Of a stretch of 64,000 bases of DNA, positions 3,211 through 60,226 are shown piece by piece. A model generated the notes under the pieces. The model was not told the DNA's origin, did no database searches, and saw only the letters and a program-made list of their open reading frames with translations. How positions within the stretch are numbered: the first letter of the stretch is position 1; every line of letters starts with the position of its first letter. The translations under genes were made by a program, and so were the position numbers. The DNA is from Planctomycetaceae bacterium (GTDB lineage Bacteria > Planctomycetota > Phycisphaerae > SM23-33), in assembly GCA_039680605.1 (NCBI GenBank), contig JBDKTA010000015.1, forward strand, positions 1 through 64,000. Direction: 5' to 3'.

Positions 3211-3238
3211 CGGCGGAATGATGGAATGTTGGAATAAC
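3211..3238. repeat. Single arm of the GGAATGATGGAATG repeat family
   Basis: The tract CGGAATGATGGAATGTTGG is one arm only. The same words form the inner arms of the nested repeat at 6163-6323 and a tract near 53924-53947. Confidence 0.6.
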
Positions 3239-3314: not shown

Positions 3315-3370
3315 GGACGTTTGCTGTTTGTCTTCTTGCCTGGAGCTTGTAGCCTGTAGTTTGGAATTTC
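3315..3370. repeat. Low-complexity repeat tract with GCTGTTTGTC and GCTTGTAGCC words
   Basis: A word-like tract (TTTGCTGTTTGTCTTCTTGC, then GGAGCTTGTAGCCTGTAG) fills the gap before the methyltransferase. It resembles the other quasi-tandem tracts in style, but no second copy was seen in the window. Confidence 0.45.
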
Positions 3371-3423
3371 CGTTTTCCGCCCCGCTCTTTGCCGCTAACA
3401 TGCCCCTCTTCACGGAGAATGTT

Positions 3424-4872
3424 ATGATCACTGGAAAACTCTGGGACCTGCACGACGAGGCCACGCTCTGGAAGTTCGACGCCGCGGCCGTCCGCCTGCT
3501 GACGCAGACGGGCCTGCGCATTCACCACGAGGAACTGCTGGACATCATGGGCCGCGCCGGCTGCCGGATCGACAAGCCCGCCATGCGGTGCTACTTCAGC
3601 GAAAAGCTCATCCGCGAGACGATCGAGCACCTGCGCGGCGGCGGGACGGGCGAAGTGAAGATGAACGCCACGTGGAACCCCGCCACGCGCACCGGACACG
3701 GCGGCACGTTCCCGCACCTGCTGGACTGGCCCAGCGGGCGGCGAAAGCTCGCCGGAAAGCAGGACGTCATCGACATGGCCAAGATGGCCCAGATGCTCGA
3801 TGAAATCACCGGCGTGGGCAAAGTGCTCAACTGCTGCGAGGTCGACCAGCGGCTCGAACCGCTCTGGTCGGCGATCACGCTGGCCGAAACCACCAGCAAG
3901 CCCGTCGGCGGCGGCGAGACGTTCTATGCCGGGTATATCGAGCCCCTGGTGCGCATGGGCGAGGTGCTCAGCGGACGCCCCGGCGACACCGGACTGGTGG
4001 CCCCGTTCGACTTCTTCATCGCCCCGCTGATTTTCGACCGCAAGCAGGCCGAGTGCTTCCTGGAGAAACGCCGCTTCAAGATCGCCCTGTACCCCGGCAC
4101 GATGGCCATCTCCGGCATGAGCGCGCCGGTGACCATCGCCGGCACGGTCGTCGTCGCCACCGCCGAGCTGCTGGCGGGCTTCGTCATGGGCTATGTGGTG
4201 GATCCGTCGCTGCCAGTGGGCTTTGGCATCACGGCGACCGGGTCGCTGGACATGCGCACGACCAACGCGTGCTTCGGCAGCCCCGAGGCGCTGCTGCAGG
4301 ACCTGGCCGTCTGCCAGGTGTTCCGCCGCCTGTATGGCATCTTCGTCGGCGGGGCGACGGGCTATGTCGACTGCAAGCGACCCGGCATCGAGGCCACGTA
4401 CCAGAAGATGTTCCCAATGACGGCCGGGGCCATGGGCCTGGGCTCGTACCCCAGCAGCGAGGGTCTGCTCTCAGCCGGTCAGGATTACAGCCCCGTGCAG
4501 CACATGCTGGACCTGGAGATCGCCAAGTCGGTCGAGCGGTTCTGGGGACACTTTGAGGTCAACGACGAGACGCTGGCGGTGGAGTTGATCGAGCAGATCG
4601 CCCGCGGGCAGGGCGCCGATTTCCTTCAGACCGACCACACGCTGTCGCACTTCCGCTCCGAGCAGTGGTACCCGCGCTGGTTCGACCGCAAGGCCTGGCA
4701 GGGCGACGCCGTCGAAGCCGTCGCCGAACGCGATATGCTCAATCGCATCGACGCCTACTGCAAAGACGCCATCGTAAGATACCAGCGCCCGGCGATCGAT
4801 GAGAAGAAAGTCGCCGAACTGCGCAGGATCTACAACGCCAACGAAGCCAGACTGCTGGCGATGCCGCTCTAG
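3424..4872 (+). CDS. Trimethylamine methyltransferase (MttB) family protein
   Basis: 482 residues, the normal length for the MttB superfamily. Members move a methyl group from a quaternary or tertiary amine to a corrinoid protein. Family features include the N-terminal LWDLHDEATLWKFDAAAVRL region, GGGETFYAG, and a glycine-rich barrel core with GGATGYVDCK and SSEGLLSAGQDY. No in-frame amber codon is present, so this belongs to the non-pyrrolysine branch, whose members act on substrates such as glycine betaine. No corrinoid-binding partner is encoded nearby. The chosen ATG has GGAG at 3414-3417, 6 bases upstream; an in-frame ATG at 3400 is possible. Substrate unknown. Confidence 0.88.
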   Translation: MITGKLWDLHDEATLWKFDAAAVRLLTQTGLRIHHEELLDIMGRAGCRIDKPAMRCYFSEKLIRETIEHLRGGGTGEVKMNATWNPATRTGHGGTFPHLLDWPSGRRKLAGKQDVIDMAKMAQMLDEITGVGKVLNCCEVDQRLEPLWSAITLAETTSKPVGGGETFYAGYIEPLVRMGEVLSGRPGDTGLVAPFDFFIAPLIFDRKQAECFLEKRRFKIALYPGTMAISGMSAPVTIAGTVVVATAELLAGFVMGYVVDPSLPVGFGITATGSLDMRTTNACFGSPEALLQDLAVCQVFRRLYGIFVGGATGYVDCKRPGIEATYQKMFPMTAGAMGLGSYPSSEGLLSAGQDYSPVQHMLDLEIAKSVERFWGHFEVNDETLAVELIEQIARGQGADFLQTDHTLSHFRSEQWYPRWFDRKAWQGDAVEAVAERDMLNRIDAYCKDAIVRYQRPAIDEKKVAELRRIYNANEARLLAMPL

Positions 4873-4881
4873 TCCGATATC

Positions 4882-5142
4882 TCACCGCGGAGATCGCGGA
4901 GATCGCAGAGATCGGAGGCGTAGCGGAAGACGGGTGGCATGGCGACACGCGCAGCGGGTCGCCATGATGCTCATCGCACACCCATGGCGACCCGCTGAAC
5001 AACGCGTGTCGCCATGCCACCCGGCCAGACGGCGCCGCCTTTGGAATTTGCAGACAAATCTACATCCCCCGCCGGGCCCAGAGCCCAAGCCTACGAATCA
5101 TTCCCTTCTTCCTCTGCGGTCTCTGCGGACTCGGCGGTGAAT
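4882..5142. repeat. Nested palindrome: CACCGCGGAG arms around a 93-nt perfect hairpin
   Basis: The outer arms are quasi-tandem GAGATCGCG words (4882-4914) and their inverted counterpart (5109-5142, ending GGCGGTGAAT). Inside lies a near-perfect hairpin. Its 21-bp arms are at 4931-4951 (CGGGTGGCATGGCGACACG..) and 5003-5023, and directly within them are 15-bp arms at 4952-4966 and 4983-4997 (CAGCGGGTCGCCATG). The loop is 16 nt. A half copy of the inner element is at 60099-60145. The right outer arm runs to the stop codon of the dehydrogenase gene. Confidence 0.92.
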
Positions 5143-6146
5143 CACATCCAGTCGATGCCGATGCCGGTGTACTGCTCGGGGTGGGCGTAAATCATCTCGT
5201 ACGCCTTGGCGGCGTCGGCGGCCTTGAAGCGGTGCGTGATCAGCGGGTCGATGTTCATCGCGCCGCTGGCCATCAGGCGCCAGGTGGCCTGCACGCGGCG
5301 GCCTTCGAGCGTCCAGGGGAAGTACGCCTCGTGAACGCGGTTGTGGAAGCAGGGCAGGTTGAAGTTTGCCCCTTTGCACCAGGCCAGGAACACATACCGC
5401 CCGCGCCACCGCAGGGCGCCGACGGAGTTCTCGATCGCGGCGTAGTTGCCCGTCGAGTCGGCCACGATGTCCGCGCCCTGCGGCCAGATCTCGCGGACGG
5501 CCTTGGCCAGGTCGATGCCCGTGACGTTGATCGCGTGATCGATGCCGGCCTTGGTCGCGCAATCAAGCCGCACCTGGTGCAGGTCGGCGATGGCGACCTC
5601 GCAGCCGCGCAGGTGATAGTGCAGCGCCGCGAACTGACCGATCATGCCCGCCCCGATCACCAGCGCCTTCTCGTTGACCTCCGGATGCGAAAGGCTCACG
5701 CCCTGGCAGGAGACGGCGCTGATGCCGCCAAACGCCGCCCGCTGACTGGTGAGGTTCTCGGGCACCTTCACCACGTAGCAGTCGCTGCCCAGCAGGTCGC
5801 GGCTGGCCGGGTCGACGTTCACCAGCGCCGTGCCCTGGTGCCCGCCGCAGCCCTGGCCCAGCCCGATCGCCGGCTGCGGGGCAAAATACGAAATGCGCTG
5901 GCCGATGTTCCAACCGGCGTCGGCTGCCTCTTTCGACACCTCGACGATCCGCCCGATCGGCGCGTAACCGGGAATGACGCCGGGGCGGTCCTTGCTCATC
6001 GTGCTGATGATGTACGATTCGGTGCCGACGCTGACCGCCGAGGCTTCCAGCTCGACCTTCACGTCCCAGGGCTTCATCGGCCCGATCCCAATCGGACGAT
6101 ACTCGACCTTCTTGGCATCAACGGCAACGATCGCATGCGGGGTCAT
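5142..6146 (-). CDS. Medium-chain dehydrogenase/reductase, zinc-independent type
   Basis: 334 residues with the MDR fold: an N-terminal GroES-like domain (to ~residue 130) and a nucleotide-binding Rossmann domain with ALVIGAGMIGQFAA. Zinc-type members carry a catalytic Cys in an ICGTD-like motif; here that site reads SVGTES, and the structural four-cysteine zinc lobe is missing. Zinc-free catalysis is therefore likely. Relatives are annotated as threonine or sorbitol dehydrogenase-like. With the isomerases and glycosidases around it, oxidation of a sugar or polyol is a fair guess. AAGGAG lies 9 bases before the ATG. The stop codon is directly touched by a repeat arm. Confidence 0.8.
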   Translation of the reverse strand: MTPHAIVAVDAKKVEYRPIGIGPMKPWDVKVELEASAVSVGTESYIISTMSKDRPGVIPGYAPIGRIVEVSKEAADAGWNIGQRISYFAPQPAIGLGQGCGGHQGTALVNVDPASRDLLGSDCYVVKVPENLTSQRAAFGGISAVSCQGVSLSHPEVNEKALVIGAGMIGQFAALHYHLRGCEVAIADLHQVRLDCATKAGIDHAINVTGIDLAKAVREIWPQGADIVADSTGNYAAIENSVGALRWRGRYVFLAWCKGANFNLPCFHNRVHEAYFPWTLEGRRVQATWRLMASGAMNIDPLITHRFKAADAAKAYEMIYAHPEQYTGIGIDWM

Positions 6147-6162
6147 CAGTCGTACTCCTTAA

Positions 6163-6323
6163 AGTTCACCGCAGAGGTCGCAGAGAACGCAGAGGAAGAA
6201 GAGGAATATTGGAAGATTGGAATGATGGAATGAACGCGGTCGCGCTCTATTGTTCCATTCTTCCACTATTCCATTATTCCGTCTTCTTCGTCTCTCTGCG
6301 GTCTCTGCGATCTCCGCGGTGAA
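6163..6323. repeat. Nested palindrome: TTCACCGCAGAG arms around GGAATGATGGAA arms
   Basis: The outer arms (6166-6193 and about 6290-6323) are the same CACCGC(A/G)GAG family as at 4882-5142. The inner arms (6203-6231 GGAATATTGGAAGATTGG..; 6252-6280 TTCCATTCTTCCACTATTCC) are a second family, also seen singly at 3211-3238 and 53924-53947. The centre is about 20 bp. The right outer arm again ends at a stop codon, that of the isomerase gene. Confidence 0.88.
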
Positions 6324-7508
6324 TCATGGTTTCGCAGCAAGCTCGTCCAGCGTCACTCCGTCGGTCGGCATGTACGTCCGCCAGTAGTCGACGGAGGCTT
6401 CCAGGCGGTTGATGATATCCACCGGGACATCCAGCGTGGAGGAGAAAACTTCCACCGTCAGGTAGATGTCGCTGCACGGCGGCGGCAGGGTCGGGTCGTG
6501 CGCCTGGCGGTAAGACTCCGCCAGGGCCTCGAGCAACTTCTCCGCCCGCACGATGCCGCGGGCGTTGTGCTCGGGCGTGAAAGGCCAGTGGGCCGACCGC
6601 TGCCCGTCGGTCTGCTGCAGATGCACGATGGGGCAATAGCAGCCCAGTTGCCGCGCCCATTCGTAGAGGTCGCCGTCTTGCGGCTGGGCGAAAAGATGAT
6701 CGTACTGCTCCAGCATCGTCTCCAGATCGTCCAGCAGTTTGCCCCGCGCGGGGTCGCTCTCGGCGGCGGCTTCGTCCAGCAGGTCGTAGGCGGCCGGCGG
6801 ACCGAGCCAGAATCCGCGCCACTGCCGTCCGGCGCGCCGCTCGTCGGCCCAATGCTCCATCTGCTGCCGCGTCGGGCGCAGGAACCGCTTCTGCCCGATC
6901 TGGTGGCCGGTGTCGAGCGAGAGATAGAACGGCCAGTGGCCGCGGGCGTACACCTCTTTCAGCAACCGCCCGGCGCCGGCGATGGTCCAGGGCACCTGGT
7001 GGGGCGTGTACATCTGCTCGACGCCGGCGGCGCGGATGCCCTTGCCCGCGGCGTATGCGGCCACCTCGCCCAGGCGGGTATACAGGTCGTCCTCGGCCGC
7101 GGCGTACGCGGCCGGATCGTTGAGCACCGCCTGGTTGAACGCGTGCGTGTAAAATCCCAGCCCCGCGCCCAGGGCGGCCGCCGAATCAATCATCCGCTCG
7201 AGCCACTGGTGCTGCATGCGGTCGCGATTGCGAACGTCGCTGTGCGCCAGCCCCAGCGTGGCGTAGGTCCCGTGGCCGGAGTAGAGATTCGCCACCGCGA
7301 CGCCGGTGGTCTGGCGTGCGGCCTGGCAGTCGGCGATCCAGTCGGCCAGATAGCCTGGATCGCTATAGAGCGGATCGCACTCGTTATCGGCGCTGGCCTC
7401 GACGAGCGAGACGCCCAGGTCAGCCACGATCGCCGCCCATTCGGCCGGGGCCGTCCAGCGCTTCGAGGCGAAGCAGTTGTCGATGACAAGATGAACTCTC
7501 GGTGACAT
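6324..7508 (-). CDS. TIM-barrel sugar isomerase/epimerase
   Basis: 394 residues with xylose-isomerase-like TIM-barrel features: VEASADNECDPLY near the N-terminus, a central GFYTHAF, then YLSLDTGHQIGQKRF and CYCPIVHLQQTDGQ, which carry the likely metal-binding Asp, His and Glu residues. Related proteins isomerise or epimerise ketoses and sugar phosphates such as erythrulose phosphate. The gene is on the same strand as the dehydrogenase, 177 bp apart, with a nested palindrome between them. No ribosome-binding site is obvious before the ATG at 7508. Exact substrate not assignable. Confidence 0.8.
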   Translation of the reverse strand: MSPRVHLVIDNCFASKRWTAPAEWAAIVADLGVSLVEASADNECDPLYSDPGYLADWIADCQAARQTTGVAVANLYSGHGTYATLGLAHSDVRNRDRMQHQWLERMIDSAAALGAGLGFYTHAFNQAVLNDPAAYAAAEDDLYTRLGEVAAYAAGKGIRAAGVEQMYTPHQVPWTIAGAGRLLKEVYARGHWPFYLSLDTGHQIGQKRFLRPTRQQMEHWADERRAGRQWRGFWLGPPAAYDLLDEAAAESDPARGKLLDDLETMLEQYDHLFAQPQDGDLYEWARQLGCYCPIVHLQQTDGQRSAHWPFTPEHNARGIVRAEKLLEALAESYRQAHDPTLPPPCSDIYLTVEVFSSTLDVPVDIINRLEASVDYWRTYMPTDGVTLDELAAKP

Positions 7509-7530
7509 GCCGGTAGTTGTAACAGAAGAG

Positions 7531-7622
7531 GATCCTAGGTCCTAGGTCCTAGATCCTAGATCCTCGATGGAGACAGATCCTCGTTCTCGCCCTAGGATCG
7601 AGGACCTAGGACCGAGGATCTT
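7531..7622. repeat. Inverted quasi-tandem repeat, CCTAGGTCCTAGG family
   Basis: The left arm 7531-7568 (GATCCTAGGTCCTAGGTCC.. then AGATCCTAGATCCTCGAT) and the right arm 7591-7622 (CCTAGGATCGAGGACCTAGG..) are inverted. The right arm encodes the last residues and the TAG stop of the gene ending at 7606. Confidence 0.85.
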
Positions 7623-9225
7623 GTTTATACATGTCGCCCAGATCCTTCGAATCCGCCGGTGACGAAGCAGGCGGCTCGGCGGCCGCGGCGGCGTGGGCGG
7701 CGCTCCAGTAGGGGTTGGGGGTATCCTGCCAGCCGCCGACGGTTTTGTCCCAGATCAGGCGGCAGCGGCGCTCGAGTTCAGTTGGGTCGAGCATCGGGTC
7801 CCAGATCGCCTCGGCCGCCAGCGCCGGCACGCGGCGCGGCTTGAGGTCCCATAGGGCCGCCTCGACCAGGATGAAGATGCCCTTGTTCGGCGGGCCTGCG
7901 GCCAGGTCGCGGCTCCAGGTCAGCAGTTGCTGCATTTGTGCGTTGTCGAGCACGCCCTTGCCCTGTGGCGGCCGCCAGTCGATCGCGCAGGGGTAGCCCA
8001 CGTCTTTGCCGTCGCAGCGGAACGGCCAGCGGTTCTTGCCCGGCGGGTCTTCGACGCCTTCCTCGATCAGGTTCCACAGCCCCTCGATGCGCGGCAGCCA
8101 GGCGCGATCGATCTCGCCCTGGACCTTTTGGCCGTCGAAGATCATCCCGCAGTTCATCGTGATGCGGTAGACGCCGGCGAAGTCTTCGCCCTTGCCGCGC
8201 AGCGCCATCTGTGCCGCGGCCATCTCGCGCGTCGCTGCCCAAGGCACGCCGTTTTCCCACATGATGTTGCAGTACGCCGGCAGAGCGCGCAGGGCCTCGA
8301 ACGTCGCCGCATCGCCGGTGTTGTGGATGCCGGCCGATATCTTCAGCTTGGGGTACCGCTTGTGCAGCGCCTCCATGATCGGCTTGATGTTCTTGACGAC
8401 GGCGCGGCCGAGTTCGGCGCTCTTGCCCGCCAGGCGCGGGTTGATCGCCTCGGTGGCCGACTGGAAGTAGATTCCGTCGATGTCGGGAATCCATGCGTAC
8501 TGGTGCTCGAAGACGTCCAGCACATAGTCCATCAACGCCGCCGGGGTTTCGTCGGCCAGCAGGTCGAGGTTGGCCAGATTGGGGTCGATCTCCCTCTTCT
8601 GCTTTTCGTACAGCGCCCACAGCCGCGCGGCCAGGGCAGGGCTGGCGTCTTTAAGATCCTCGGCGACCCAGCCCCAACTGAAGCCCCACCAGATCTTCAC
8701 GCCGCGCGTGTGGGCGTACTGCACCAAGCGGGCCGCGTCCATCGGCACGCCGCGGTTCCAGAAGACGATGGTGTTGTACTTCCAGCGGCTGGCCTGGTCG
8801 ATGTACGCGTACGGATCGTAGCAACCGTAGAGCCACGTCCACAGCCCGCGATCCTGAATCTTCGGGCAGGAGACAAAGTCGATCGCCGCGGGCTTCTTGC
8901 CCTTGCTCACTGCCGCCAGCCACTCGCGGCAGTAGTAGTGCTGGAAGTCTCGCACGGCCCAGAGCAGCCCCGCCGCGTCGACGCCGGTCAGCGTCACCCC
9001 GCGCGGGCTGATGACAATGCGGAAGCTCTCTGCCGGAGCCCCGCGCTTGACGCCCTTGGGATCGATCACGAGCTCGACCTGCCCGTCCGCCTTCGAGGCT
9101 GACTCGCCCAACGCGCATTTTTCGTTCTGCAGATGATCCTGCAGTTCGTTAAGTGCAAATCGCGACGTGCGATTGCTGCCGGGAAAACACGCAGTGACAG
9201 CCACAGTGATCTTTTGTTTCGCCAT
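7606..9225 (-). CDS. Glycoside hydrolase-like protein with GH20/GH67-type N-domain
   Basis: 539 residues. Residues ~1-110 resemble the non-catalytic alpha/beta domain found before GH20 and GH67 catalytic barrels (FRIVISPRGVTLTGVDAAGLLWAVRDFQ). A TIM-barrel-like region follows (DRGLWTWLYGCYDPYAYIDQ, VKIWWGFSWGW, IDGIYFQSATEAINPRL). Candidate acids include the Glu of SATEA. No signal peptide is seen. The ATG at 9225 follows a purine-rich GAAGGA; an upstream in-frame extension exists but reads into the divergent promoter region. The C-terminal KQDPRS and the TAG stop come from a CCTAGG-family repeat, so the original end of the protein may have been altered. Enzyme activity unproven. Confidence 0.68.
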   Translation of the reverse strand: MAKQKITVAVTACFPGSNRTSRFALNELQDHLQNEKCALGESASKADGQVELVIDPKGVKRGAPAESFRIVISPRGVTLTGVDAAGLLWAVRDFQHYYCREWLAAVSKGKKPAAIDFVSCPKIQDRGLWTWLYGCYDPYAYIDQASRWKYNTIVFWNRGVPMDAARLVQYAHTRGVKIWWGFSWGWVAEDLKDASPALAARLWALYEKQKREIDPNLANLDLLADETPAALMDYVLDVFEHQYAWIPDIDGIYFQSATEAINPRLAGKSAELGRAVVKNIKPIMEALHKRYPKLKISAGIHNTGDAATFEALRALPAYCNIMWENGVPWAATREMAAAQMALRGKGEDFAGVYRITMNCGMIFDGQKVQGEIDRAWLPRIEGLWNLIEEGVEDPPGKNRWPFRCDGKDVGYPCAIDWRPPQGKGVLDNAQMQQLLTWSRDLAAGPPNKGIFILVEAALWDLKPRRVPALAAEAIWDPMLDPTELERRCRLIWDKTVGGWQDTPNPYWSAAHAAAAAEPPASSPADSKDLGDMYKQDPRS

Positions 9226-19013: not shown

Positions 19014-19105
19014 TTAGCCGCTGAGGTCGCTGAGGACGCAGAGGAAAGAGAGAAATAAGCACTCTACCCTTCTTTCTCAGCGTCCTCAGCGACCTCAGCG
19101 GCTTA
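19014..19105. repeat. Inverted repeat, GCCGCTGAGGTCGC family, copy 1
   Basis: 30-nt arms at 19014-19043 (TTAGCCGCTGAGGTCGCTGA..) and 19076-19105 match at 28 of 30 positions when inverted; the loop is ~32 nt. Each arm is itself a run of GCTGAGG words. A second copy is at 56059-56140. Confidence 0.9.
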
Positions 19106-36245: not shown

Positions 36246-39157
36246 TCCGCCGAGACGTCGGCGAACTGCGGTTCCTCAAAGCGGTTGCCCCGAATGCGCG
36301 GACCCAGGCCCGACATCAGCTTGAAGCTGACGTTCTGCGGACCGTACTCCATGACGAAGTCCGGACCGGCCGAGCGGAACAGCGTGTTGTTCTCGAAGGC
36401 GATGTCCGCGGCGAATCGTTTCTGCCGCAGCGACAGCGAGGGTCCTTCCGAGGTCACCAGCACGTTGTTGCGAAAGACGTTGTCGTTCATCCGCACCTTC
36501 TGCTCGACAGTCATGTCATTGATCTGGACAGCCGCGGCGGTCTTGGGCTCGCTGCCCTCCTGCCAGCTCTGCCGCCCGATCCAGATGGTGTTGCGTTCGA
36601 AAACGTTGGCGGTCTGATCGTACGCGACGACCTTCTGCGAACCGACGCCGCCGGCAGACAGGGCGATGCCCTGACGCGTGTTGTTGAAGATGAGGTTGTC
36701 GGTGGCGGCCGACTGCGACACCCCGTTGCTGAGCAGGATGCCCTCGCCGGTGTTGGTGTGAATGACGTTGCGCTGCAGGAGCAGTTCACTGACGCGCCCG
36801 TCGTTGTGCAGCCCGCTGGCGCCGTTTCGGTACGCCAGGCAGATCCGGACCGTCACGCGCGAGTTCGGCAGAACGCGGCTGCCCAGGTACAGACCCTCGG
36901 CGGTGTTATCGTGGAAGACGCAGTGCTCGATGAGGATGTCGTGCAGGTCTTCCTGCCCGCGCAGGCCCCACTTGTTCGCGTGGCTGTCCAGGTTCCGCAG
37001 GGCGATCTGACCGCAGGCGTTGAGGTCCACCCCGGCGCTGGTGCTGGCCGACCCGGCGCCGACGAGCGTCAGACCGTCCAGGGTGACAAAGTGGCAGCGG
37101 TCGAGCACCGCGCAGGCCAGTTGCCCCTCGATGACGGCGCGGTGGCCCGGGTACGCCGCGATCAGGATCGGCGCCTCAGCGGTGCCGATGAGCCCCCGCA
37201 GAATCAGCGGGTACTTGCCCGCATACGTGCCTTCGCGGAACAAGACCGCGTCGCCGGCCTTGAGGTCGCGGCGCACCGCCGCGAAGGTGGCGTAGGGCGC
37301 CGAAGCGTCGTCGACCTGCCCATTGTCATCGCTGCCCGCCGGCGAGAGGAAGAAGATCCGCTGCGGGCGGTATCCCTGGGCCGCCAGCAGCGCCCGGACG
37401 TCCTGACCGTACTTGGCGGTGACGGTGTCGGGGGTATTCAGGGCGGCGTTGGCGTCGCTGGCGTCGGGGCCCAGCGGGCTGGCCGGACCGTACCCGTCGC
37501 CGTCGTTATCCCAGTAGAGCACGCCGGCGCCGTTGCGAGATCCGGCGCCGCTGGAGACGCCGGTGACCGCCGCGCCGGCGCCGGCCGCGACCGTCAGTTG
37601 CGGGGCGACCCGGCGCACTGCCGCGGGAGGAATGGCCACGGCCTCGACGGGCACCGCCGCGGCCAGCGGTTGCACCACCACGTTATGCACCGCCACCGAT
37701 CCGCCGCCGCGGGAGAAGTCGAACTTCTCGGGGGTGGCGAAATAGCTCGGCGAGACGTCGCGGAACTTGGGGTCTTCGTAGACATTGCCCTGGACGCGGT
37801 TGCCCAGTGAGGCGATCGCGGCATAGGCGAGCGTCTGGGGCACCGACTCGACGCACATCGCCGGACCGGCGATGCGGAAGAGGGTGTTGTTCTCGATGCC
37901 CGTCACGGCTGCGAAACGCCGCTGCTTGAACGAGAACACCGGTCCGCGCTGGGTGACGATCACGTTGTCGCGGAAGATGTTTTCGCTCATCTGGATGGTC
38001 TGGGCGGTGGTGGAGTCGTTGAAGACGACGGCGGGAAAGTCCACCGGCTCGTACTGCCCGTTCCATCCGCGCTGCCCGATCCAGATGGTGTTGCGCTCGA
38101 AGAGGTTGCCGTTCTGGCTGTACGGGACGATCTGCGGATTGGGATCGGTGTACGTGTACATCACGATGCCCTGTTTGTTGTTGTTGAAGATCAGGTTGTC
38201 GCGAACGATCGAACTGGACACCCCGTTGATGAACGAGATGCCGCCCAGGGCGTTGGTGTGGAAGGAGTTGTTCTCGAGCAGCAGTTCGGTCACGCGGCCG
38301 TTGTGCTGGAACCCATGTCGCCCGTTGCGGTAGGACAGGCAGTTTCGCATGGTCAGGCGCGAGTTGGGGGCCTCGCGGCAGCCCAGGTACACGCCGTGCT
38401 CGACGGGGTTGTTGTGCAGCACGCAGTCTTCGATCAGGATCTCGTGGAGGTCCTGCATCCCGTGGATGCCCCACTTGTGACCGCAGGCCTCGATGCGGCG
38501 CAGCACGATGCGGCTGCAGAAGTGCATCGACACGCCCGCGCTGCTGCTGGTGGCGCTGCTGGTGAGAGTCAGACCGTCGAAGACGAGATTGCGGCAATTG
38601 CCCAAGGCCAGCGCCAGCCCTTCGGCGTCGATCACGACGCGCTGCCCCGGATACGCCGCAACCACGATGGGCTGGTCGTCCGAGCCCTGGACCTTCTGGC
38701 AGACCATGGGGTACTTGCCCTTGTACGTGCCGCCCATGAACAAGACCGCGTCGCCGGCCCGCAAGCTCCCAACCACCGCGGCGAATGTGGCGTAGGGCTT
38801 GGCCGGGGCATCGGCCTGTCCTGTGGCGTCCCTGCCGGCCGGGGCGATGTAGAAGATGCGCCGCGGGCGGTAGCCCTGCTTGGCCAGCAGCGGCGAGATG
38901 TCGTCGCCGTACTTGGCCTTGACGGTGTCGGGCGTGTTGACCAGGGCGTCGGCGTCGTCGGCGTCAGGCCCCATCGGGCTGGCCGGACCGTACCCGTCGC
39001 CGTCATGGTCGATGTACAGCGACCCGGCCCCCGGCGGGGGGCCCGCTTCGGCCGGCGCGATGACCTGCCCGTCGACCTTTGCGATAGTTCCTGTGAACGC
39101 CGCAAGAAACGCTGCAACCAGAGCGACTCCGACGGAGACTTTAGGCGTGGTTGGCAT
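36179..39157 (-). CDS. Exported right-handed beta-helix protein, internally duplicated
   Basis: 992 residues. A signal peptide (VGVALVAAFLAAFTG) precedes two ~450-residue copies of the same unit (about 45-520 and 540-985). Each unit opens with a metal-binding-like motif (DHDGDGYGPASPMGPDADD; DNDGDGYGPASPLGPDASD), resembling the MopE-type motif but without its cysteine, then a linker (YRPRRIFYIAPAGRD) and a pectate-lyase-like beta-helix (PYATFAAVVGSLRAGDAVLF; VHENNTL-like FENNTLFRSAGP). Each ends near PEKFDFS. Likely a secreted polysaccharide-binding or lyase-like surface protein; no catalytic residues could be named. GGAGGGGG precedes the ATG. Convergent overlap of 67 bp with the deacetylase. 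Confidence 0.85.
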   Translation of the reverse strand: MPTTPKVSVGVALVAAFLAAFTGTIAKVDGQVIAPAEAGPPPGAGSLYIDHDGDGYGPASPMGPDADDADALVNTPDTVKAKYGDDISPLLAKQGYRPRRIFYIAPAGRDATGQADAPAKPYATFAAVVGSLRAGDAVLFMGGTYKGKYPMVCQKVQGSDDQPIVVAAYPGQRVVIDAEGLALALGNCRNLVFDGLTLTSSATSSSAGVSMHFCSRIVLRRIEACGHKWGIHGMQDLHEILIEDCVLHNNPVEHGVYLGCREAPNSRLTMRNCLSYRNGRHGFQHNGRVTELLLENNSFHTNALGGISFINGVSSSIVRDNLIFNNNKQGIVMYTYTDPNPQIVPYSQNGNLFERNTIWIGQRGWNGQYEPVDFPAVVFNDSTTAQTIQMSENIFRDNVIVTQRGPVFSFKQRRFAAVTGIENNTLFRIAGPAMCVESVPQTLAYAAIASLGNRVQGNVYEDPKFRDVSPSYFATPEKFDFSRGGGSVAVHNVVVQPLAAAVPVEAVAIPPAAVRRVAPQLTVAAGAGAAVTGVSSGAGSRNGAGVLYWDNDGDGYGPASPLGPDASDANAALNTPDTVTAKYGQDVRALLAAQGYRPQRIFFLSPAGSDDNGQVDDASAPYATFAAVRRDLKAGDAVLFREGTYAGKYPLILRGLIGTAEAPILIAAYPGHRAVIEGQLACAVLDRCHFVTLDGLTLVGAGSASTSAGVDLNACGQIALRNLDSHANKWGLRGQEDLHDILIEHCVFHDNTAEGLYLGSRVLPNSRVTVRICLAYRNGASGLHNDGRVSELLLQRNVIHTNTGEGILLSNGVSQSAATDNLIFNNTRQGIALSAGGVGSQKVVAYDQTANVFERNTIWIGRQSWQEGSEPKTAAAVQINDMTVEQKVRMNDNVFRNNVLVTSEGPSLSLRQKRFAADIAFENNTLFRSAGPDFVMEYGPQNVSFKLMSGLGPRIRGNRFEEPQFADVSADYFARPEKFDFSPPAAAAAVKP

Positions 39158-48222: not shown

Positions 48223-48315
48223 TATGGAGTGCGGCAGCCTTAGCTGCCGCTTTCAACGCGTCCCACAGGAGGCCAACAACTGCCAAAGCGGCAGCTAAGG
48301 CTGCCGCACTCCATA
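48223..48315. repeat. 31-bp perfect inverted repeat with hairpin arms (GCGGCAGCCTTAGCTGCCGC)
   Basis: The arms at 48223-48253 and 48285-48315 are perfect inverted copies with a 31-nt loop. Each arm also folds by itself: GCGGCAGC-CTTA-GCTGCCGC, an 8-bp stem with a 4-nt loop. The element sits between the divergent propeller and hydrolase genes. Confidence 0.93.
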
Positions 48316-53261: not shown

Positions 53262-53869
53262 TCTTCTGCTTTTCCGTTGTACTTGTCCATCACGAAGGCA
53301 ATCCCGTTGAAGACCCAATCCTCAACGGCATCGGCAGCCGTCTTGACGGCGATCTCGATGATCGCCGCCTGGTCCTGCGGAACCGCTTGCAGGACGTAGT
53401 CGGCACTGTCCATATTCGCCGGCGACGGGCCGATCCCGATCCGCAGGCGAGGCAGGGCGTTAGTGCCCATCTTTTGCATCACGTCGGCCAGGCCGTTATG
53501 CCCGCCGGCCGACCCCTCCGCCCGCGCCCGAAGGCGTCCCGGCGGCAGGGCCAAGTCGTCCATCACCACCAGCACGTGATGCGGCGCCAGGTGGTAAAAA
53601 CCCGCCGCCATCGCCACGGCCGACCCCGAGCGGTTCATGTACTCCTGCGGCTCAAGCAGCGTCACGCGCCGCAGGGCATCGCTCCGCGTGGTTCGCACGT
53701 CCCAGGCGCGGGCGCCGAAGGCGTCACGGCCGGAGCCTGCATCGAACCGCCGCACCAGTTCGTCGACAACCCGGAACCCCAGGTTGTGCCGCGTGTGGCG
53801 ATATCGCGTGCCGGGGTTTCCCAGGCCCACGACCAGGCGGCGGTCGACGACATCATTTCCAATTTCCAA
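53258..53869 (-). CDS. pth: Peptidyl-tRNA hydrolase
   Basis: 203 residues. The core VVGLGNPGTRYRHTRHNLGFRVVDEL holds the catalytic His; VLVVMDDLALPPGRLRARAEGSAGGHNGL has the Asp and substrate loop. It frees tRNA from dropped peptides. The start is unclear: the first in-frame codon of the usual kind is TTG 53869, inside a repeat (TTGGAAATTGGAAATGATG). An ATG pair at 53856 and 53853 is in another frame. The expected start of Pth would be just before RRLVVGLGN, so the upstream DNA may have been replaced by the repeat. Overlaps rpsF by 4 bp. Confidence 0.95.
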   Translation of the reverse strand: MEIGNDVVDRRLVVGLGNPGTRYRHTRHNLGFRVVDELVRRFDAGSGRDAFGARAWDVRTTRSDALRRVTLLEPQEYMNRSGSAVAMAAGFYHLAPHHVLVVMDDLALPPGRLRARAEGSAGGHNGLADVMQKMGTNALPRLRIGIGPSPANMDSADYVLQAVPQDQAAIIEIAVKTAADAVEDWVFNGIAFVMDKYNGKAEE

Positions 53870-53998
53870 TTTTCAATTTCCAATTTTCAATTGGAAAAAC
53901 CGCTCAATCGCAGCTTCCAATATTCCATCATTCCAACATTCCGCATTTACGCCGCTATGCGGCAATGGGCAATTGGAAATCGGAAATTGGAAATTGCC
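53859..53998. repeat. Palindromic tract CAATTTCCAATTTTCAATTT with an inner TTCCATCATTCC tract
   Basis: Outer words CAATTTCCAATTTTCAATTT (53859-53900) return inverted as GCAATTGGAAATCGGAAATT (from about 53968). Between them lies TTCCAATATTCCATCATTCC (53921-53947), the family of 3211-3238 and 6203-6280. A nested design again; the tract reaches the pth start codon and the rplY stop codon. Confidence 0.85.
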
Positions 53999-55788: not shown

Positions 55789-56211
55789 AAAGGTTCCAGT
55801 CGCTCGTCCGGCCCAGGCGCTGCCTGGCAAAAAACCCAATCGCGGCGGGGGGTCGTCCCGAGGCCTGCGCGGACGGCCGCGAGGGGCCCGCACACTCTCC
55901 GCAATACCGCCGCGAAGACGCCCGTGAGGACGATCAGGTAAATCGCCTTGAATCAGGTCCAGAGATTCTACGTTTGAAACAATCCCCTGTCAACGGACTT
56001 TGCCGCGAAAATGTTTCCCCGTGAGGAAGAAGAAGCCCTGCCACAGCCCGGAGACCAAATTAGCCGCTGAGGTCGCAGAGGGAAGAAGTCGTTTCATCTC
56101 TTTACATCCTCAGCGTCCTCAGCGACCTCTGCGGCCTAATCTATCGGCGGCAGTAATCGCATTCTGCAATAAATTGCGGGCCACGCCCGCGCCGGGCTTG
56201 CCACGTAGAAC
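55789..56211. other. 423-bp gap between tRNA-Gln and moxR with one repeat
   Basis: No gene seen. It contains a small hairpin (CCAGGC/GCCTGG at 55813-55828), a GC-rich stretch to ~55960 and the GCCGCTGAGG repeat at 56059-56140. I could not fit a known structural RNA here. Confidence 0.5.
56059..56140. repeat. Inverted repeat, GCCGCTGAGGTCGC family, copy 2
   Basis: Left ATTAGCCGCTGAGGTCGCAG (56059-56081) and right CCTCAGCGTCCTCAGCGACC.. (56108-56140) are inverted; same family as 19014-19105. Confidence 0.85.
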
Positions 56212-60098: not shown

Positions 60099-60145
60099 CG
60101 GGTGGCATGGCGACACGCGTTTTTGTTTCTCGCGGGTCGCCATGG
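60099..60145. repeat. Half copy of the GGGTGGCATGGCGACACGCG hairpin element
   Basis: CGGGTGGCATGGCGACACGC (from 60099) and CGCGGGTCGCCATGG (60131-60145), separated by TTTTTGTTTCT. These are the two left arms of the element at 4931-5023; here they pair with each other with one mismatch. Confidence 0.85.
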
Positions 60146-60226
60146 GATTGAGAAAGCACTAAACGCATTGCCTGCCGCTCGGTACAATGAGCATCGCCTC
60201 GACGGTGGTCTTCCAAGGAGAACGCG

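Follow-up and report, generated by a model that had tools for sequence, protein, structure and literature searches.

Word-armed nested palindromes in a planctomycete genome as probable MITE-like mobile elements with lasting ends and replaceable interiors

The window (the whole stretch of 64,000 nucleotides that was analysed, in contig C15 of its genome) contains two nested palindromes, whose outer arms are inverted arrays of a degenerate 9-nt word, CGCNGAGNN, named O9. We estimate, at roughly two chances in three, that O9 elements are small, non-autonomous, MITE-like mobile palindromes with lasting ends and replaceable interiors; the claim is that they work like a MITE, not that they are MITEs. 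Orthologous sites carry a whole element in some species and none in others, one element is bounded by a clean 9-bp target duplication, interiors have been inverted in place, at least two sites carry differing interiors in the same arms, and the nesting is mixed. The small number of clean target duplications speaks against a mobile element. In the proposed mechanism, the arrays of the degenerate word would form long terminal inverted repeats, on which a putative transposase would act, and the elements would insert between genes, for the most part shortly downstream of stop codons. The interior could then flip at its site, or a different type of interior could take its place or arise from it, presumably via recombination or template switching between the inverted arms, within or between copies. 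Other mobile palindromes could land in the loop, which would give the Russian dolls as a layered result.

Element A (4882-5141) lies between convergent genes, i.e., a gene of the trimethylamine methyltransferase (MTTB) family (3361-4872, plus strand) and a zinc-binding dehydrogenase gene (5142-6146, minus strand). Its arms, TCACCGCGGAGATCGCGGAGATCGCAGAG and CTCTGCGGTCTCTGCGGACTCGGCGGTGAA, enclose a 93-nt hairpin (P93, with GGGTGGCATGGCGAC ends) at 4931-5023, whose two perfect helices measure 21 and 15 bp and whose bulge and loop have 5 and 16 nt, respectively. The left arm, composed of 9-nt words (4882-4911, plus strand), starts 10 nt past the TAG of the MttB-like gene, and the 9 nt in between resemble the K-type left end CCCGGATATTTCACC (see below); the right arm (5112-5141, minus strand) abuts the TGA of the dehydrogenase gene. 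Element B (6165-6322) is found between two minus-strand genes, the dehydrogenase gene and a gene for a xylose-isomerase-like TIM barrel protein (6324-7508). Here, O9 arms at 6165-6194 (plus strand) and 6293-6322 (minus strand, directly after the TGA of the TIM barrel gene) enclose GGAATATTGGAAGATTGGAATGATGGAATG and CCATTCTTCCACTATTCCATTATTCC, with GGAATGATGG arms that span 6202-6280 and comprise a left array of GGAAT words with an 8-nt period (6202-6231, plus strand) and a right one (6251-6280, minus strand). Reading along the minus strand, the two genes that precede an element each have a TGA stop followed immediately by TTCACCGC. Each left arm pairs with the right arm of the other element (inverted pairs I1 and I12), and the top 28-nt inverted match in the 2-kb region reaches 25 of 28 positions, compared with 17-21 in 20 Markov resamplings. 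The earlier description of one outer arm family around differing interiors was thus confirmed, both in its coordinates and in its structure. Curated RNA families matched two tRNAs in the window and neither of the elements. The dehydrogenase has a single fair relative (67% identity), from a different genus; its remaining relatives are distant.

The same arms and interiors recur in the window. Empty O9 palindromes of the TTAGCCGC type are present at 19014-19105, with a 32-nt loop, and at 56060-56138, with a shortened left arm. The sequence-only reading had also placed the inner families alone at three other positions. At 3.2 kb, this holds for a lone GGAATGATGGAATGTTGG word array without outer arms (3213-3238, plus strand), and at 60.1 kb it holds in part, the repeat being a half-form of the P93 hairpin outside O9 arms (60099-60146, plus strand). 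The third position, at 53.9 kb, turned out to be another doll (53855-53996): arms of TTTCCAATTTTC words (53855-53893 and 53963-53996), described as CAATTTCCAATTTTCAATTTCC arms, enclose one-sided GGAAT words (53911-53942).

The genome comprises 5.23 Mb in 72 contigs, of which 2.37 Mb (45%) were read for element counts. The O9 arm pattern matched 661 times genome-wide, as opposed to 51 times for the reversed-pattern control. In the 2.37 Mb, 67 arm pairs were convergent, two divergent and two same-direction, i.e., the arms are arranged as terminal inverted repeats, like those of MITEs. About 67 further arms appeared solitary in the same 2.37 Mb, although many of these, when read singly, are degenerate or half elements or lie beside another repeat; thus, arms may also spread or decay singly. 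The interiors of the 67 pairs fall into 21 empty ones (loop of at most 40 nt), 16 that share one conserved interior, called K110, 12 with GGAAT or GGATG words, 5 with a member of a hairpin family, one of which also carries GGAAT words, and 13 others. K110 was found solely with O9 arms; 16 of its 18 real copies in the 2.37 Mb have both of them. One arm family therefore surrounds several unrelated interiors, as in NIME-like mosaics. K-type elements, most of which measure 187-200 nt, read (T/C)TA(A/G)CCCGGATATTTCACCGC...GCGGTTCATGCAGTTTTCGGGCTA, and O9 elements end in TTCACC, TTAGCC or TAGCCCGG. Since a TAGCCCGGATATTTCACCGC-like end is also present without O9 words behind it, the end that is recognised may lie outside the O9 array. 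At four loci of the window's genome (C4:150267, C22:27102, C4:124409 and C22:17382), the outermost end CCCGGATATTTCACCGC occurs without O9 words, and two of these copies continue with ATGAACCTTCGGTTC.

Nesting is not confined to O9. Other palindromes with short-word arms in this genome are built of CACAGAG, GTAATCAG, GATCCTAG, CCGAAATT, GTGAGTG, GACGAGG, GGATTAAGA or TTTCCAA. A triple doll at C33:95541 has TTAGCCGCTGAGG arms around GGAATGATGG arms around a hairpin of the 93-nt type; at C17:27992, the order is reversed and an O9/K110 element sits inside a GGGTGCCATGGCGG hairpin; at C33:76640, a GGGTGCCATGG hairpin lies within GATTTCGGATT arms; and at C22:301227 and other places, GTTAGCGG hairpins lie within GACGAGG arms. 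With 21 empty centres, at least five kinds of interior, the reversed nesting and the triple doll, outer arms are neither always filled nor tied to one inner family, and the layered reading therefore survives.

Among the relatives searched, no second genome of the window's genus was found. The proposed base-resolution comparison of insertion points with empty copies proved workable in two related genera, i.e., genus g9 (G008 vs. G050, G044 and G048, with 80-93% DNA identity in most flanks), in which G008 belongs to the GTDB family of the window's genome, and genus g41 (G041 vs. G047). Ten sites occupied in G008 are empty in its congeners: L377 and L446 in three relatives, L375 and L435 in two, and further L436, L441, L443, L373, L371 and L393. 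Such presence and absence at orthologous sites is what is seen for MITEs. At L375, a clean 9-bp duplication, CTTGATTAG, surrounds TACGGATATTTCACCGC...GCGGTGAAGCAT and is present as a single copy in two relatives, and L446 shows a probable 7-bp duplication, TAAGAAA; in most elements, no duplication is clear. In the window's genome, flanking direct repeats of at least 8 bp were found at 7 of 67 elements, where 1.6 were expected from partner shuffling, and repeats of at least 10 bp at two elements (0.3 expected).

Between some relatives, the element is shared at the orthologous site and its interior has or has not changed. L385, L444, L431 (G008/G048), L388 and L384 carry the same element with the same interior. 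At L373, the interior is inverted in place (100% identical when inverted vs. 71% in the forward direction). The same is found at L441 (97% vs. 61%), where a private base, CATAAAAG, is kept in both orientations, and hence it is the same ancestral copy that was turned round. At L371 and L447, another interior type is found within matching arms and junctions, with identities of 48%, which is the shuffled level, and 42%, which is below it. The interiors at L431 (in G044) and L438 are ambiguously different, L445 has a nested element in one species and a simple one in the other, and L436 has collapsed in G044. Another palindrome occupies the same slot at L438 in G050 (a triple doll), at L385 in G044, and at L380 and L390 in G047. 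Thus, an interior at a fixed site can be inverted or changed in type between species, a layer that was invisible to the sequence-only reading. The presence and absence at L373 and L441 conflict with a single tree, so that elements are also lost or inserted repeatedly; some of the cases of different interiors could be repeat insertions at the same spot. The orthologous empty sites make the movement of O9 directly testable, and they separate insertion of the unit, inversion or replacement of the interior, and landing of one repeat in another, which are usually merged for intergenic repeats.

In an orthologous slot after a stop codon, CCGCAGAG-T-CCGCAGAG-A-GCGCAGAG at L390 in G041 faces CCGCGAAT-T-CCGCGAAT-T-GCGCGAA at L487 in G047, with equal spacer letters. 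It looks as if all word units have changed together.

The mover was sought via long-range arm pairs and K-type ends, and no transposase or autonomous unit with O9 or K ends was found in 2.37 of the 5.23 Mb. Likewise, none of the 15 Y1_Tnp (RAYT-like) genes of the window's genome (L193-L207) is flanked by paired O9 arms. A RAYT was rejected as the mover of O9, as the Y1 genes carry other repeats, including those of GCG and CGCACAACTC hairpin families. GTAG-tagged hairpins flank L202, CGCACAACTC hairpins L203 and GTCAGCCCAGGGCG repeats L193. The GTAG tag beside a short stem, by which REPs and REPINs are recognised, is not found in O9, and the GCG hairpins constitute a separate, REP-like family.

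How far such elements extend was assessed by scanning about 85,000 species genomes once for three exact words. The O9 arm was found in at least 119 stretches, from more than ten bacterial phyla and at least two archaeal records. Among the matches listed, the bacterial assemblies are labelled Acidobacteria, Chloroflexi, Planctomycetota, Deltaproteobacteria, Nitrospirae, Gallionellaceae, Latescibacterota, Armatimonadetes, Cloacimonadota and Bipolaricaulota, and the archaeal ones ANME-1 and Methanosarcinaceae. An inverted partner lies inward of 70 of the 132 arms among the matches listed and outward of three; a few matches, among them those in Prauserella and Mycolicibacter, resemble chance occurrences in coding sequence. 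By eye, nesting was recognised in other phyla at L229, L250, L209 and L272. The arm also occurs in 44 stretches of viral contigs. One O9 palindrome (L359:748-866) directly follows a major capsid gene (PF20911; phrog_212), and another (L348:6858-7023) shares its contig with genes for portal, protease and major head proteins; phages may therefore be a vehicle. It is a tentative proposal, which we hold to be possible though not probable, that O9 represents a pan-prokaryotic class of word-armed transposable palindromes, which phages would partly carry between phyla and domains, of which the ends alone would be recognised, and in which cassette interiors would be exchanged between inverted arms and the repeated word could change in concert in all its units.

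The dolls might instead reflect a preference of palindromes for the loop of another palindrome, e.g., because single strands of a cruciform are open to an HUH (RAYT-type) transposase. This was assessed on 141 word-armed palindromes from which the hairpins were excised. Their loops amount to 8,892 bases and their arms to 8,260, out of 273 kb that are intergenic according to gene calls from a home-made hexamer finder; diverged pairs (e.g., element A) escape the seed-based count in numerator and denominator alike. Eleven of the 145 hairpin loci lie in loops, where 4.7 were expected (P about 0.008), and none in arms, where 4.4 were expected. In addition, GTTAGCGG hairpins are found in GACGAGG arms (6 of 45 copies), and the letters beside them are unrelated from one case to the next; there is also a precedent in REP dimers, some of which lie within longer palindromes (Di Nocera et al., 2013, PMC3733652). 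However, this one combination makes up 6 of the 11 loop insertions, and the modest excess could result from tolerance, from selection against broken arms or from detection bias. Moreover, hairpin copies are mostly free (nested are 2 of 28 for P93, 1 of 29 for AGC and 0 of 14 for HIN), and 6-8% of random intergenic points lie within some palindrome. Arms are hit too, as a small hairpin, GGCGGCTGTTCGCCGTCCC, lies within an O9 arm at L414, L454 and L465 (genus g9, two species), in two of these cases at an identical nucleotide position in the left arm. The insertion preference for palindrome centres that had been suggested at the outset is thus weakly supported; after control placements it was rejected as the main cause of the nesting, and we regard it as doubtful.

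Alternatively, the palindromes could be selected, functional RNA hairpins, such as terminators or stabilisers of 3' ends, and the dolls longer stems. Their position would fit: 51 of 73 elements lie within 40 nt of a stop codon, vs. 19% in random placement, and there is some excess between convergent genes (17 of 64, vs. about 17% of the intergenic length). The position is accounted for equally well by a bias towards safe landing past stop codons, and such a safe-site effect would most simply be the cause. In the arm-swap test, after which the RNA structure reading was rejected, arms of the same element paired no better than arms of different elements: identity within elements vs. shuffled partners was 0.915 vs. 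0.924 in the TTAGCCGC class, 0.835 vs. 0.861 in the K class, and 0.858 vs. 0.843 in the rest. The compensatory changes of a structured RNA are thus not seen: identity within elements equals the shuffled level in two classes and is marginal in the third (28 of 500 shuffles). The arms match the family consensus, not each other, and therefore resemble the ends of a transposon, not a co-evolving RNA hairpin. As elements are also missing at many orthologous sites and interiors turn over, a role as selected RNA hairpins appears improbable.

Replication is known to err by switching templates between inverted repeats, and the arms are inverted and centred on hairpins, but the suggestion that local switching of this kind copied them around a hairpin already in place is very improbable and for O9 already contradicted, as the arms belong to one dispersed word family at hundreds of places, 21 of the 67 pairs have no inner hairpin, whole elements come and go at orthologous sites whose empty versions lack both arms and hairpin, and the two arms of an element resemble each other no more closely than do arms of different class-mates.

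The MITE-like reading of O9 can be set against several known systems. REP, BIME and REPIN sequences with their RAYTs are likewise small intergenic palindromes in hundreds of copies and inverted pairs, and a GTAG-CACGGGCGTCTCGCCCGTG family flanks one Y1 transposase in the window's genome. In contrast, O9 arms are arrays of about 30 nt of a 9-nt word without a terminal GTAG, they are not tied to a Y1 transposase, and the cleanest case is flanked by a target duplication, which HUH transposition is not known to make. MITEs (Correia elements, RUP, ERIC) share with O9 that they are short, non-coding and intergenic, have inverted ends, and are present or absent between relatives; the target duplication of MITEs has one clean and one probable counterpart in O9. 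O9 differs from them in its ends, which are tandem degenerate words, in the inversion or replacement of interiors at fixed sites, and in having no known parent element. In neisserial intergenic mosaics, dRS3, a 20-bp palindrome described in Neisseria, is combined with different RS (PMC3898611). Here too, one kind of repeat is combined with differing others, which is a likeness in arrangement and no claim of membership; O9, however, is a 9-nt word array that occurs in many phyla and whose interiors are inverted at a fixed site. The pneumococcal BOX, RUP and SPRITE repeats insert into one another, and BOX has fixed outer modules, boxA and boxC, around variable inner ones (PMC3049150); unlike O9 arms, the outer modules of BOX are not inverted copies of one word array, and BOX varies mainly in the copy number of boxB. 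Both the insertion of one repeat into another and variable interiors between fixed ends have precedents (PMC3733652, PMC3049150, PMC3898611). No description of the O9 arm was found in open-licence papers searched with the literal words and with phrases for nested palindromes, broader searches yielded the REP paper and otherwise unrelated work, and an earlier description elsewhere is possible. As far as the searched literature goes, a pan-prokaryotic word-armed palindrome and direct evidence of interiors being inverted or changed in type inside standing arms are new.

Three further repeats were observed in the window. A palindrome at 7526-7625 has arms of GATCCTAG words and represents a further word-armed family. 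At 48223-48315, a perfect 31-bp inverted repeat (TATGGAGTGCGGCAGCCTTAGCTGCCGCTTT) belongs to a dispersed hairpin family with 29 copies in 2.37 Mb. Long direct repeats at 36546-39031, spaced by exactly 1500 nt and 71-76% identical, are probably a duplicated coding region.
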